A DNA stretch of 64,000 nucleotides from Salegentibacter mishustinae (GTDB lineage: Bacteria > Bacteroidota > Bacteroidia > Flavobacteriales > Flavobacteriaceae): positions 186,001 to 250,000 of the forward strand of contig NZ_LLKN01000002.1 of assembly GCF_002900095.1 (NCBI RefSeq). Reading direction: 5' to 3'. Every line of letters starts with the position of its first letter. The stretch's first letter is position 1. Below, in pieces: positions 39,557 through 50,400 of the stretch. A program made the translations under genes and the position numbers. Below the pieces are notes generated by a model. The model did not search any database and was not told where the DNA came from. It was given only the letters and a program-made list of their open reading frames with translations.

Positions 39557-41938
39557 TTAAAACTTCAAAGTAATTCCGGCTAAAAAGTTGGTAGTTGCTT
39601 GAGGATAGTAACCTGCTCCATCTAAAGTTTGTAAACCCGTTGAAGTATCTGGGTTTTCTACATCAAAAGTGTAGTAATAGCCATTAGATACATATTCTTC
39701 GCCAAATATATTATTGACCAAACCTGTAAATACCACTTCTTTAAATAAAGGCGCGTTTCTCCAGGTATACTGAACATTAAAATCGTTTACGAAATATGCA
39801 TCTAACTTAGAGGTTTCGGCTTCAATATTGCTCATATATTGCTCTCCCACATATTTTGAAAGTAGGCTTAATTCCAAACCATTTACAGGCAGATAACTAA
39901 TTCTATTACCACCCACTATTGAAGGAGAAAAAGAAATATCGGTATTCCCAAAATCAACCAGTTCACCATCCCAGGTAGCTACAAAATCGATATTCTTATT
40001 TTGGCTTAAAGCCAGGTTTGGCCTTAGCACTACTTTTTCTGAAAGTCTAATTATCGCATCTATTTCCAGACCTAAGCGATAACTATTTCCACTGTTTTCA
40101 CGAATAAAAGAACCAACATCATCAATACCACCGGTGAGTACCAGCTGATTTTGATAATCCATATAATATAAATTGGTATTTAGCTGAACAGCTGTTGTAT
40201 TAAGCCTCCAGCCCAATTCATAATCGTTTAGTTCTTCGTGTTCAGGATCACCGTTTTCATAATCACTTCTTCTTGGCTCTCTATTGGCGCGAGCATAAGA
40301 GAAATAAAATTGATTTTGATCGTTCAACACATAGGTTAATCCGGCTTTTGGATTGAAAAATGTGAAAGAATCATTTACCAGGAATTCATTACCTTCAGAT
40401 AAAACTCCTTCGGTCTCATAATCTATAGTTCTGACTTGCATATCTAAATAACCGGCCAGTTTGTCTGAAATCGCATAAGTCGCTTTTCCGTATAGGTTAA
40501 AGTCAGTTTTTCTACCTACATTTTCATAGTATGGCTCATAAGGATCATTATTTCTAGCAAAACGGGTGTAAATAACTTCACCAAAATGATCACCAATGTA
40601 TCGATTCCAGGCACCGCCAAAATTCACATCCCAATCTGCATCCTGATAATTTAAACCGAAAGTAGTTCCGTAGAAATCATTATCCAGCCATTTAGTGCCT
40701 ACCAAATCTGAAGTAGAAACTTCTTCCCCATCAGCCTGAAAATTTTCCAATCCGAATTCATTTAAAGCAGCATCCTCTTCATATTCCTCGTAATAACCGC
40801 GGCCATAGGTATAATGAAAAGCAAGATTAGAAGACCAGTTTTTATTATACTCCTGGTTCCACAGTAATTGATAGTGATCTTGCTTGTAATTATCGGTTTG
40901 GTTTTCATAGAATTTAGTGTTTCCAGCCTCATCGGTATATACTCCCGCAGGGTTATAGGTTCGATCGTTTTCCAGGGTTTCTGCATCTATCCCGTACCAG
41001 GCCTGGTAAGTAGTTTCACTACCTCCAAATGTTATGGCCTTAACGAGTGTATTTTCGTCTACATAGGTTCCTTGTAGAAAGTAAGATTTTAAATCACTAC
41101 TGGCCCTATCTATATAGCCATCACTTTTAATTTGCGAAGCACGGCCGGCAAATTCCCAATGATTGTCTATAAGTCCAGTACTGAATTTCACGGTATGCTT
41201 GTGCGTGTTAAAAGAACCGTAGCTATTGCCAATTTCTGCGTTTGCTTCTTCGCTGTAACCGTCGGTTAAGATATTTATACTGGCTCCAAAAGCACCGGCG
41301 CCATTTGTGGAAGTTCCCACCCCACGTTGCAACTGTAAATTTTCTACAGAAGATGCAAAGTCACCCAGGTTCACCCAAAAGGTTCCAAGGCTTTCAGCAT
41401 CGTTATAGGGAATACCATTTATTGTTACATTGGTACTGGTGGGACCGCTTCCTCTCACCCTAATCCCGGTGTAACCCACGCCGGCACCGGCATCACTGGT
41501 AGTTACCACATTAGGCATATAATTCATTAACACAGGAATATCCTGGCCCAGGTTACGATCTTCAATTTCCTCATTACCAAGGTTACTATAAGTAATAGGA
41601 GATTTTGCGGTAACTCTTACCGAAGAAAGAAAAACCTCATCTAAAACTTCTTCAACATTAGCAAGGTCTACATTTAAGGTTTTGTCCTGATCAAGCTCTA
41701 CCTCTAAACTTTTTTGATTCCCATAAGAAAATACAAGCTTATAAGTTCCTTCTTTAAGCTGGAGGCTATACCTCCCATTTTCATCGGTAGCTGTGCCCTC
41801 TCCAGATTCTACGGCATAAACTGCCACGCCTTCTACCGGCTTTTCGCCACGGGTTACTTTTCCCTGTACAATGTGTGTTTGAGCAACGGCTTGCAGTGAA
41901 ATAAGGCAGAGGCCGATAAAAAATAATAAAGATTTCAT
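39557..41938 (-). CDS. TonB-dependent outer-membrane receptor under TPP riboswitch control, probable thiamine uptake
   Basis: A 793-residue outer-membrane receptor. It has a signal peptide (LLFFIGLCLISLQAVAQ), a carboxypeptidase-regulatory-like beta-sandwich (residues ~20-100, QGKVTRGEKPVEGVAVYAVE), a plug domain (IPVLMNYMPNVVTTSDAG, GIRVRGSGPTSTNVTINGIP) and a 22-strand barrel ending in LAGITLKF. The leader holds a TPP riboswitch with its own terminator. In Bacteroidota, TPP-controlled receptors of this kind have been proposed as thiamine transporters, so the substrate is probably thiamine or a precursor moiety. No SusD-like partner is present. Confidence 0.9.
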   Translation of the reverse strand: MKSLLFFIGLCLISLQAVAQTHIVQGKVTRGEKPVEGVAVYAVESGEGTATDENGRYSLQLKEGTYKLVFSYGNQKSLEVELDQDKTLNVDLANVEEVLDEVFLSSVRVTAKSPITYSNLGNEEIEDRNLGQDIPVLMNYMPNVVTTSDAGAGVGYTGIRVRGSGPTSTNVTINGIPYNDAESLGTFWVNLGDFASSVENLQLQRGVGTSTNGAGAFGASINILTDGYSEEANAEIGNSYGSFNTHKHTVKFSTGLIDNHWEFAGRASQIKSDGYIDRASSDLKSYFLQGTYVDENTLVKAITFGGSETTYQAWYGIDAETLENDRTYNPAGVYTDEAGNTKFYENQTDNYKQDHYQLLWNQEYNKNWSSNLAFHYTYGRGYYEEYEEDAALNEFGLENFQADGEEVSTSDLVGTKWLDNDFYGTTFGLNYQDADWDVNFGGAWNRYIGDHFGEVIYTRFARNNDPYEPYYENVGRKTDFNLYGKATYAISDKLAGYLDMQVRTIDYETEGVLSEGNEFLVNDSFTFFNPKAGLTYVLNDQNQFYFSYARANREPRRSDYENGDPEHEELNDYELGWRLNTTAVQLNTNLYYMDYQNQLVLTGGIDDVGSFIRENSGNSYRLGLEIDAIIRLSEKVVLRPNLALSQNKNIDFVATWDGELVDFGNTDISFSPSIVGGNRISYLPVNGLELSLLSKYVGEQYMSNIEAETSKLDAYFVNDFNVQYTWRNAPLFKEVVFTGLVNNIFGEEYVSNGYYYTFDVENPDTSTGLQTLDGAGYYPQATTNFLAGITLKF

Positions 41939-41995
41939 TCGTAAGAAATTATTTACGAATAAAAGGGGCTATTATTCCTTGGTTAAAAATTAGAT

Positions 41996-42042
41996 AAAAA
42001 AAAATCCTGAAATTGCCCACCGGTGTTTTGGCATTTTCAGGA
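41996..42042 (-). terminator. Expression-platform terminator of the TPP riboswitch
   Basis: The minus-strand RNA forms TCCTGAAAATGCC / GGCAATTTCAGGA (one mismatch, 12-base loop) followed by nine U residues, located between the aptamer and the receptor start. This is an intrinsic terminator that TPP binding could expose. Confidence 0.85.
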
Positions 42043-42065
42043 GTACATACGTTGCGCATTTTGCG

Positions 42066-42146
42066 CGTGTCCCTTGGCAGCATTACCTGCCCAGGTTCTT
42101 TGGGTATGATCTCAGCCACAATTAAGTGGCACCCCTTTGAGATTTG
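42066..42146 (-). promoter_or_regulatory. TPP riboswitch (THI element)
   Basis: The minus strand contains the conserved aptamer blocks in order: GGGGTGCC, GGCTGAGATCATACCC, GAACCTGGGCAGGTAATGCTG, and AAGGGA. These correspond to P2/J3-2, the pyrimidine-sensor GGCTGAGA and the pyrophosphate-sensor loop of thiamine pyrophosphate riboswitches. It sits immediately upstream of an intrinsic terminator and the TonB-dependent receptor gene. Confidence 0.93.
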
Positions 42147-42149
42147 CGG

Positions 42150-42179
42150 CAAATGTATAAGACTTTTATGAAAAAGCAA
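42150..42179 (-). promoter_or_regulatory. Consensus promoter of the TPP-regulated receptor
   Basis: On the minus strand TTG (42179-42177), 19 bases, then TACATTTG (42157-42150), a perfect Bacteroidota promoter. The predicted start site falls at the 5' edge of the riboswitch. Confidence 0.8.
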
Positions 42180-49240: not shown

Positions 49241-49807
49241 CTATTTATTTTTTAAAAGTTCGTCTATTTCCTCTATCGCAATATTAAAACGATCTATAAG
49301 ATCGCCTTTCAAAACAACATAAGGCTTTTGATGTTTTATAAGCTCTTCTTCAAAGCGTTTGAACATCCCTTTTCGATCTTCCGGTTTATCCCGAAGATCA
49401 TCAGGGGTCCAGGGAACGTCAATATACGTTAAAAAGTACAAATCGTATTGATTGTTTAACGCATGTTTAAGAAGTTGAGCATCACAAAAACCATCGTAAT
49501 AAGCCTCTGAATAGACTTTTAGCTCTAAAAGGTTAGTGTCGCTAATTAGGAGATTATTAGCTTTTTCGGCCAACATATTTTCACGTTTCATTTGGCCTTC
49601 AGCAATAGGAATCATGTCTTTTGGTTCACAAATCTTTTTTTCTTTATCCCATTTTTCCTGAAGATATTCCCGCATATATTCTTCTACCCAAAAAGTATTA
49701 TAATGGGTCGCAAGCATTTGTGCCAGGCTGGTCTTTCCTGTAGATTCAGGTCCAAATAGAACTATTTTTATGAGGGACGAAGGTCGTTGCGCAAGTTTTT
49801 CTGCCAT
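49241..49807 (-). CDS. NadR-like P-loop kinase (no adenylyltransferase domain)
   Basis: A 188-residue ATPase resembling the ribosylnicotinamide kinase domain of NadR. Walker A is VLFGPESTGKTSLAQMLA, followed by WVEEYMREYL and a DTNLLELKVYSEAYYDG segment; the YFLTYIDVPWTPDDLRDKPEDR stretch is typical of the family. The usual partner NMN adenylyltransferase domain is absent. It overlaps the pnuC-type gene by 40 bases. It may phosphorylate the vitamin imported by PnuC (nicotinamide riboside or thiamine); which one cannot be read from sequence. Confidence 0.88.
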   Translation of the reverse strand: MAEKLAQRPSSLIKIVLFGPESTGKTSLAQMLATHYNTFWVEEYMREYLQEKWDKEKKICEPKDMIPIAEGQMKRENMLAEKANNLLISDTNLLELKVYSEAYYDGFCDAQLLKHALNNQYDLYFLTYIDVPWTPDDLRDKPEDRKGMFKRFEEELIKHQKPYVVLKGDLIDRFNIAIEEIDELLKNK

Positions 49808-50400
49808 GCTTTATAGCCGTAAATAGCGATTATAGTAAATACAAAATATTGAAGTGCCGTTAAGGTAAGGCCTTTATAGAAATAAAGCGGAACCGAAATG
49901 ATATCTCCAATAATCCAAAATATCCAGTTTTCAATCTTTCTTTTAGCCATTTGCCACATTCCTACAAAGAAAATTGCCGTGGTAAAGGTGTCTACGTAGG
50001 CAGTCCAATTAGTCCACTTATCAAAATACTCATAAACGGCGAATACAAAAAGTAAGGTCGCAATAAAGATAAACAGGCTTTGCCAGTTTTCCTTCTTTGT
50101 AGTATTGGTTATAGGCGTAAAATGCTCGGCATCTACTTTTCGCGTCCAAATATACCAGCCGTAGATACTCATAGAGAAATAATAAGCATTAATCATCATA
50201 TCACCCAAAAGTTCCCATTGCCAAAGCAGGTAAACAAAAATCGTAGTGCTTATAATCCCGGTAGGATAAACCAGAATATTGTTTTGCTTGGAATAGAGTA
50301 CCGAAAGAAAACCAAAGATTACCGCAATTACTTCAAGAATGATAAATAAAGTTGGATACCCGTAATATTGATCAAAGAAAAAATCAAAAATCGGCTGCAT
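49768..50400 (-). CDS. PnuC/PnuT-family vitamin transporter
   Basis: A 210-residue inner-membrane transporter of the PnuC family with seven predicted helices. The C-terminal substrate motif WQMAKRKIENWIFWIIGDIIS (W...NW...W...D) is visible. PnuC carries nicotinamide riboside, but Bacteroidota also have PnuT paralogues proposed to carry thiamine. The preceding gene encodes a thiamine-binding YkoF-type protein, which favours PnuT here; the following NadR-like kinase would fit either. It overlaps both neighbours. Confidence 0.9.
   Translation of the reverse strand: MQPIFDFFFDQYYGYPTLFIILEVIAVIFGFLSVLYSKQNNILVYPTGIISTTIFVYLLWQWELLGDMMINAYYFSMSIYGWYIWTRKVDAEHFTPITNTTKKENWQSLFIFIATLLFVFAVYEYFDKWTNWTAYVDTFTTAIFFVGMWQMAKRKIENWIFWIIGDIISVPLYFYKGLTLTALQYFVFTIIAIYGYKAWQKNLRNDLRPS

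Follow-up and report, generated by a model that had tools for sequence, protein, structure and literature searches.

Locus and receptor

The window analyzed here is a 64,000-nucleotide stretch of the Salegentibacter mishustinae genome, and all coordinates are positions within it. Its minus strand carries the gene of a TonB-dependent receptor behind a leader with a promoter, an aptamer resembling that for thiamine pyrophosphate (TPP), an intrinsic terminator and a hairpin over the start codon (Table 1). The leader is read as a riboswitch that would reduce synthesis of the thiamine receptor in the outer membrane whenever a thiamine compound is abundant, utilizing a TPP-derived aptamer in which the 5' strand of helix P2 is exchanged; this reading was given a probability of about 0.6. 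Promoter, aptamer, terminator and receptor start had been placed in this order by an initial annotation of the locus and were all found where it put them; the start-codon hairpin and the adjoining CCCC had been overlooked. The leader is conserved in 15/15 genomes of the genus, and this conservation and the RF00059 match given below both go beyond chance.

The TTG-N19-box promoter of that annotation was recovered, and we take the two boxes to be the -33 and -7 elements of the Bacteroidota promoter consensus. A total of 134 receptor leaders were examined (133 distinct, L093 and L179 having an identical leader). A TAnnTTTG box was present in 131 of them, mostly 12-16 nt ahead of GGGG, and because of this spacing the leader RNA probably starts near UCUCA, with a start site at about 42144 in the window. 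A simple sigma-70 and terminator scan, built on different consensus boxes and limited to loops of ≤8, listed neither promoter nor terminator.

Table 1. Positions of the leader features and the receptor gene in the window
Feature	Position	Strand	Basis
-33 promoter element TTG	42177..42179	-	sequence; presumed Bacteroidota promoter consensus
-7 promoter element TACATTTG, 19 nt past TTG	42150..42157	-	
5' UCUCA, presumed RNA 5' end, in the place of P1; complements core UGAGA	42138..42142	-	
AAAGGGGUG, P2 5' strand, proposed switching strand	42130..42138	-	
TPP-like aptamer without P1	about 42070..42143	-	RF00059 match 42052-42146, 45.7 bits
CUGAGAUCAUACCC, pyrimidine-binding J3-2 and P2 3' strand	42102..42115	-	role from PMC3764141, available text
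P4-P5 arm with closed J4/5, CCU-G-GGCAG-GUAAUG-CUGCC-A-AGG	42070..42098	-	
Small GCGC hairpin 3' of the aptamer; arms co-vary within the genus (by eye)	42054..42066	-	
GUAUG, complement of core CAUAC; in the predicted antiterminated fold	42046..42050	-	
ACUCCU at the terminator base; complements AGGGGU (one G-U)	42039..42044	-	
Intrinsic terminator with nine U	41996..42042	-	stem 42042-42005, U tract 42004-41996
H1 hairpin GAAUAA-(UAGCCCCUU)-UUAUUC, proposed anti-sequestor	41957..41977	-	
CCCC; with the next UUU (41964-41962) complements AAAGGGG	41965..41968	-	
Start-codon hairpin UUUUAUUCGUAA / UUACGAAUGAAA, pairing AUG and codon 2	41933..41964	-	
TonB-dependent receptor, 793 aa (carboxypeptidase-regulatory-like, plug, barrel)	39557..41938	-	ATG at 41938

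The receptor has the plug and barrel domains of its family. A survey of 60 genomes, the window's own included, gave a TPP match in 57. The 111 TPP-like places from this survey were sorted by us into 54 receptor, 20 thiSC (defined by thiS-thiC gene order; one ThiC checked by Pfam), 15 pnuT (14 assigned by BLAST, L084 by its leader), 11 orphan and 11 mixed loci. The mixed class comprises three thiM-like loci, seven before methyltransferase-like and AIR-synthase-like genes and one unassigned; Pfam checks covered the proteins of two of these loci. Relatives of the receptor (25 to 97% identity, the window protein aside) stand behind 54/111 places. A second collection of at least 80 named loci was retained from a protein search with the receptor; each of the 80 listed has a TPP-like aptamer pattern upstream, and the start codon was placed at once in 77. 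The nearest receptors among the named records, a set that may lack the closest neighbours of the window's own record, are those of Christiangramia (74% identity), which points to the Flavobacteriaceae. A Bacteroides finegoldii relative (45.8% identity over 88%) is followed by pnuC and then by thiamine diphosphokinase. By similarity and gene context the receptor is of OMthi type, and thiamine uptake is predicted.

Three TPP-like elements occur in the window's genome (3.82 Mb, 5 contigs): that of the receptor, another ahead of a pnuC-like gene and a third with no sense gene close behind it. Neither ThiC nor TMP-TENI was found in this genome, nor a thiamine pyrophosphokinase by PF04263 or TIGR01378; ThiG gave one partial match of 26 bits. 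The thiamine gene set fits dependence on imported thiamine.

TPP-riboswitch control of omr was reportedly described by Rodionov in 2002. Such control of omr, an outer-membrane receptor gene, is already on record in the available text of PMC2211319. In B. thetaiotaomicron, as far as PMC5613172 was available, a TPP riboswitch precedes BT2390 (OMthi), a TonB-dependent receptor with genetic evidence for thiamine uptake; the receptor mRNA showed no significant change with thiamine, and the mode of action is called uncertain by the authors. The aptamer compared here is that of the receptor in the related B. finegoldii, and it differs from the window's in reaching 63.9 bits, in being canonical by eye and in standing right at the start codon. 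According to the title of a 2019 preprint, the TPP riboswitches of Bacteroides work at the level of transcription or translation.

Aptamer with a closed J4/5

An Rfam search of the window returned no family at gathering score. The covariance-model check that the initial annotation had named gave 45.7 bits for RF00059 against a gathering score of 54.3 (E 1.2e-7 in an 801-base search). Features shared with the RF00059 aptamer are P2-P3, the UGAGA pyrimidine pocket of J3-2, P4, P5, the UAAU of L5 and the thiamine gene context; the P4 U-A pair is retained in receptor aptamers. The leader differs in that P1 is absent, J4/5 is closed and the C77-G78 positions are lost, so the claim of that annotation that all conserved TPP aptamer blocks are present is incorrect: besides P1, the C-G of J5-4 by the pyrophosphate is missing. 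The gathering score was reached by 4/54 receptor aptamers, compared with 20/20 thiSC, 11/11 orphan, 10/11 mixed and 4/15 pnuT, and annotation based on this cut-off would miss the variant in 50/54 receptor-class aptamers.

P1 was rejected as the switching helix, since at best 1-3 uninterrupted pairs are possible in the 15 genus leaders, against 5-6 in 20 thiSC leaders. Four to six P1 pairs are possible in 14/39 and 13/80 of the remaining receptor leaders; a short P1 may be present in some leaders outside the genus. UCUCA was found in 117/134 receptor leaders and in 0/50 other TPP leaders, a count that left out seven pnuT loci whose aptamer starts upstream of the matched stretch.

In canonical aptamers G60, C77 and G78 of J4-5/J5-4 hold metal and pyrophosphate, G78 by direct pyrophosphate contact, and J3-2 holds the pyrimidine (PMC3764141 and PMC6414600, the G78 contact from PMC3764141; available text). 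At these positions the window aptamer has a single G opposite a single A, and no C-G. A fold-based parse covered 132/134 receptor leaders (the unparsed L110 and L149 look canonical and closed, respectively, by eye). J4/5 is closed in 125 of these, as 1x1 with five P5 pairs in 89 and as 1x0 with six in 36; two are 3x3 and five are of other form. The canonical 3x3 form was obtained for 15/15 pnuT and 11/11 orphan aptamers of the same genome set (26/26), 10/11 mixed and 6/8 parsed thiSC aptamers; the parse failed on 12/20 thiSC aptamers, of which 12/12 keep GA-N against CG-N by eye. Neither 1x1 nor 1x0 occurred in the parsed aptamers of other TPP classes. Another regular expression, a crude one aimed at the J5-4 G (7/134 receptor, 15/15 pnuT, 11/11 orphan, 15/20 thiSC, 2/11 mixed), was judged unreliable, as it recovered only two mixed-class leaders where the parse gave ten canonical, and the parse was used instead.

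Covariation was scored on 25 receptor aptamers, hand-picked for diversity. Changes occur in both strands of all five P5 pairs, pairing is seen in 99.7% of 350 cells, and 0/500 shuffles reach the covariation score. A model built on receptor-class aptamers (R2), whose ranking favours the closed form, was run against 149 genomes of the taxonomic class and matched in 95. Its best 30 loci comprise 14 with closed J4/5 (two by eye), 13 that are 3x3 by parse, one canonical by eye and two unread. Nine of the 14 closed loci lie outside the order, in five families, and the receptor was identified downstream by BLAST in the 12 of the 14 that this search covered (all but L247 and L248). Bacteroides and Persicobacter receptors have a canonical J4/5 by eye. 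As far as seen, the closed J4/5 goes with this receptor, and the canonical form is probably ancestral. The low Rfam score and lost P1 would also suit a decaying aptamer that no longer binds anything, a reading made very improbable by the strong conservation and covariation across the order and by comparable closed forms from five families beyond the order.

The initial annotation had derived the receptor's substrate from its leader. The thiamine link is supported by the relatives at 54/111 places, by the 80 named loci and by the B. finegoldii operon; TPP itself is doubtful as the ligand because the pyrophosphate-binding loop is closed. The ligand may instead be thiamine or another form without pyrophosphate. 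The same anatomy could also serve TPP at weaker binding, the closed J4/5 tuning the receptor switch to higher TPP than the pnuT or thi operons; this is quite possible, if short of an even chance, as the pyrimidine-binding UGAGA, the L5 UAAU and the P4 U-A pair are retained and some lineages have a canonical J4/5 before the same receptor, but the C77/G78 positions are lost, the adjoining loop is replaced by a covarying pair, and the pocket matters: canonical aptamers bind thiamine 1000-fold more weakly than TPP, at 50 μM as opposed to 50 nM (PMC4112796, available text).

At locus L249 the TPP-like aptamer has a short P5, and the protein behind it resembles a thiazole synthase by eye.

Terminator and start-codon hairpin

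The terminator had been described as a hairpin of 12-13 bp with termination as the probable mechanism. The nine U and the stem are present, the stem having 13 positions with one A-A mismatch and hence 12 pairs. A terminator between aptamer and start was found in 24/120 leaders (14/15 in the genus), against 21/1150 shuffles. Termination is thus plausible within the genus and was rejected as a general mechanism, terminators being in the minority and the start-codon hairpin widespread. An ordinary TPP riboswitch working solely through termination, as first annotated, is accordingly unlikely: it draws on a good terminator with nine U and on the 14/15 genus leaders in which the test detects one, but it leaves aside the much wider start hairpin, the closed J4/5, the absent P1 and the score below gathering.

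The hairpin was modelled (R1) from 20 sequences. At E ≤ 0.05 R1 matches the window and 73/80 loci from the second collection; the latter count becomes 71/78 without L168 and L179, whose hairpins are identical to training sequences. In the whole own genome the receptor leader is the only site under E 0.1, and no match under E 1 was obtained in 57 loci of other TPP classes. Double changes number 56 cells against 17.7 in shuffles, in an alignment fitted to the model and so leaning towards it. The unpaired fraction at -3..+6 averages 0.11 in 120 receptor leaders and 0.49 in 266 other open reading frames, each taken from the first ATG of its frame and possibly not from its true start. CC[CT]C stands 12-45 bases before an in-frame start in 120/134 leaders, where chance would give about 13% per such window and the start choice favours the motif; the 120 leaders of the accessibility and CCCC-partner tests were selected on this motif. 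MAFFT did not align H1 across the order, hence scoring was performed hairpin by hairpin. On these sequence comparisons the widely conserved platform is the start-codon hairpin, not the terminator, and the leader probably works chiefly through occlusion of the start codon.

Predicted partners of the P2 5' strand

The P2 5' strand AAAGGGGU has two downstream complements, ACUCCU at the terminator base and CCCCUUU at the start hairpin. It is the best aptamer partner of CCCCUUU in 117/120 leaders (mean -11.8 kcal/mol); the P4 3' strand, tried as an alternative partner of CCCC, was rejected at -5.9 kcal/mol. CUCC stands at the base of 22/24 terminators despite a different upper stem outside the genus. 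In 22/24 (8/10 outside the genus) no other 9-mer tested fits this base as well as the P2 5' strand does. Folding predicts both the terminator and a mutually exclusive antiterminator. For RNA ending at the terminator's 5' arm, the ligand-free prediction is -37.1 kcal/mol with AGGGGU:ACUCCU and CAUAC:GUAUG, against -33.9 kcal/mol for the P2-forming, holo-like fold. Where 5' strands differ among classes, a leader's own strand fits its downstream region better than swapped ones do in 13/14 pnuT, 10/11 mixed and 16/19 thiSC leaders.

Several results weigh against the proposed exchange. The own-against-swapped test is weakest in the receptor class (106/129; means -12.1 and -10.8), where the common GGGG makes it less informative. 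The 25 aligned aptamers show no variation in GGGG, and the CCCC and CUCC pairings therefore rest on conservation and exclusion, not on compensatory change. R1 misses 7/80 loci of the second collection, and on 22 more distant receptor leaders it gave five matches at E ≤ 5, only L089 being below 0.05. CC[CT]C is missing from 14/134 leaders, three of them without a placeable start, and start codons were chosen with preference for the motif. H1 alone is weak, with 14/120 leaders beating shuffles at p ≤ 0.05 (median 0.16), and costs a mean of 6.3 kcal/mol relative to the free fold.

The CCCC hairpin could alternatively be an independent element (a protein, small RNA or ribosome site) unread by the aptamer. 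The Cs do lie outside the start hairpin and the GGGG complementarity is beyond reach of the covariation test; nonetheless, all 18 exact H1 matches among the matches listed for the 60 genomes are at this receptor, R1 gave nothing under E 1 in the 57 loci of other TPP classes and the P2 5' strand is so regularly the best aptamer partner, which together make an independent element improbable.

Proposed switching

From these complementarities we infer an order of folding in which the P2 5' strand, not P1, would be exchanged, with the terminator served first and the start hairpin second. In the absence of ligand, the 5' UCUCA could pair the core UGAGA and leave the P2 5' strand free. The free strand would first pair with ACUCCU at the terminator base, giving antitermination, and then with CCCCUUU; together with GAAUAA:UUAUUC of H1 this would strip the start hairpin of its 5' arm, freeing the AUG. 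In the presence of ligand, GGGG would be kept in P2, so that terminator and start hairpin form and receptor production falls.

More broadly, we tentatively propose, at rather less than even odds, a widespread TPP-aptamer variant class that accompanies Bacteroidota outer-membrane thiamine receptors, has its pocket closed by pairing, senses thiamine or a pyrophosphate-free form and utilizes the P2 5' strand to drive terminator and start hairpin in series. If true, such a natural aptamer would sense thiamine independently of TPP and let cells keep supply and cofactor pool apart. For the control of such receptors the start-codon hairpin suggests an explanation that can be tested.

Parallels exist among described riboswitches, each taken from the available text of the article. 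The E. coli thiC riboswitch (PMC5234074) conceals the ribosome-binding site and start codon in its OFF state, and its ON state has a long-range pairing (anti-P1) with reduced reactivity to selective 2'-hydroxyl acylation analyzed by primer extension (SHAPE) at C7-G16 of the 5' region. E. coli thiC uses anti-P1, whereas the receptor leader is without P1 and is proposed to play the P2 5' strand against two platforms in series. In the Neisseria meningitidis thiC riboswitch (PMC7237195) a Rho-independent terminator has its 5' arm blocked by an antiterminator and freed by the ligand; unlike here, P1 shifts, and a start-codon hairpin is not mentioned in that text. Variant riboswitch classes and the hydroxymethylpyrimidine pyrophosphate (HMP-PP) riboswitch (PMC7266159, PMC6478431) are similar in having a known scaffold with an altered pocket, or a thiamine intermediate as ligand, but the text available describes no such variant of the TPP aptamer. 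The open-access literature, as far as its text was available, yielded no description of a TPP-type aptamer whose pyrophosphate pocket is closed; a main paper on variant classes lies outside that scope.

Other TPP elements and receptor loci

Orphan TPP aptamers were found in 11/15 genus genomes, adjoining murB in ten and elsewhere in G011. All have a canonical J4/5. The one in the window's genome is L004 7555-7690 (G000:C1:121554, G000 being this genome); the others are L036, L040, L043, L045, L059, L062, L067, L073, L078 and L082. Their spacer hairpin varies in sequence with the pairing kept (by eye and fold), and their terminator carries an invariant AGCUUCAUUU. There is no sense gene close behind, the next gene being convergent in 10 genomes (of fasciclin type in the window's genome). 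The orphan aptamer is a candidate TPP-sensing small RNA or antisense source.

The pnuT riboswitch of the same genome (L005 8981-9803; G000:C2:393643) has an aptamer with an insert ahead of GAACCUG. By eye, its GAAAUGGGGUG complements CACCUCAUUUC immediately ahead of a CAUUG:CAAUG start hairpin; genes resembling pyruvate dehydrogenase lie downstream. Within the window, a second pnuC-like gene stands beside a NadR-like kinase-domain protein at 49241-50400, where no riboswitch matched at gathering score; it probably serves nicotinamide riboside uptake.

A Flavobacteriaceae-type receptor and leader are carried by L165, a record titled as a Klebsiella pneumoniae metagenome-assembled genome (MAG) and probably a mislabelled bin. 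The mixed-class aptamers before methyltransferase-like and AIR-synthase-like genes (L039, L046, L053, L063, L068, L083 and L119; the L046 pair Pfam-checked) have a canonical J4/5.

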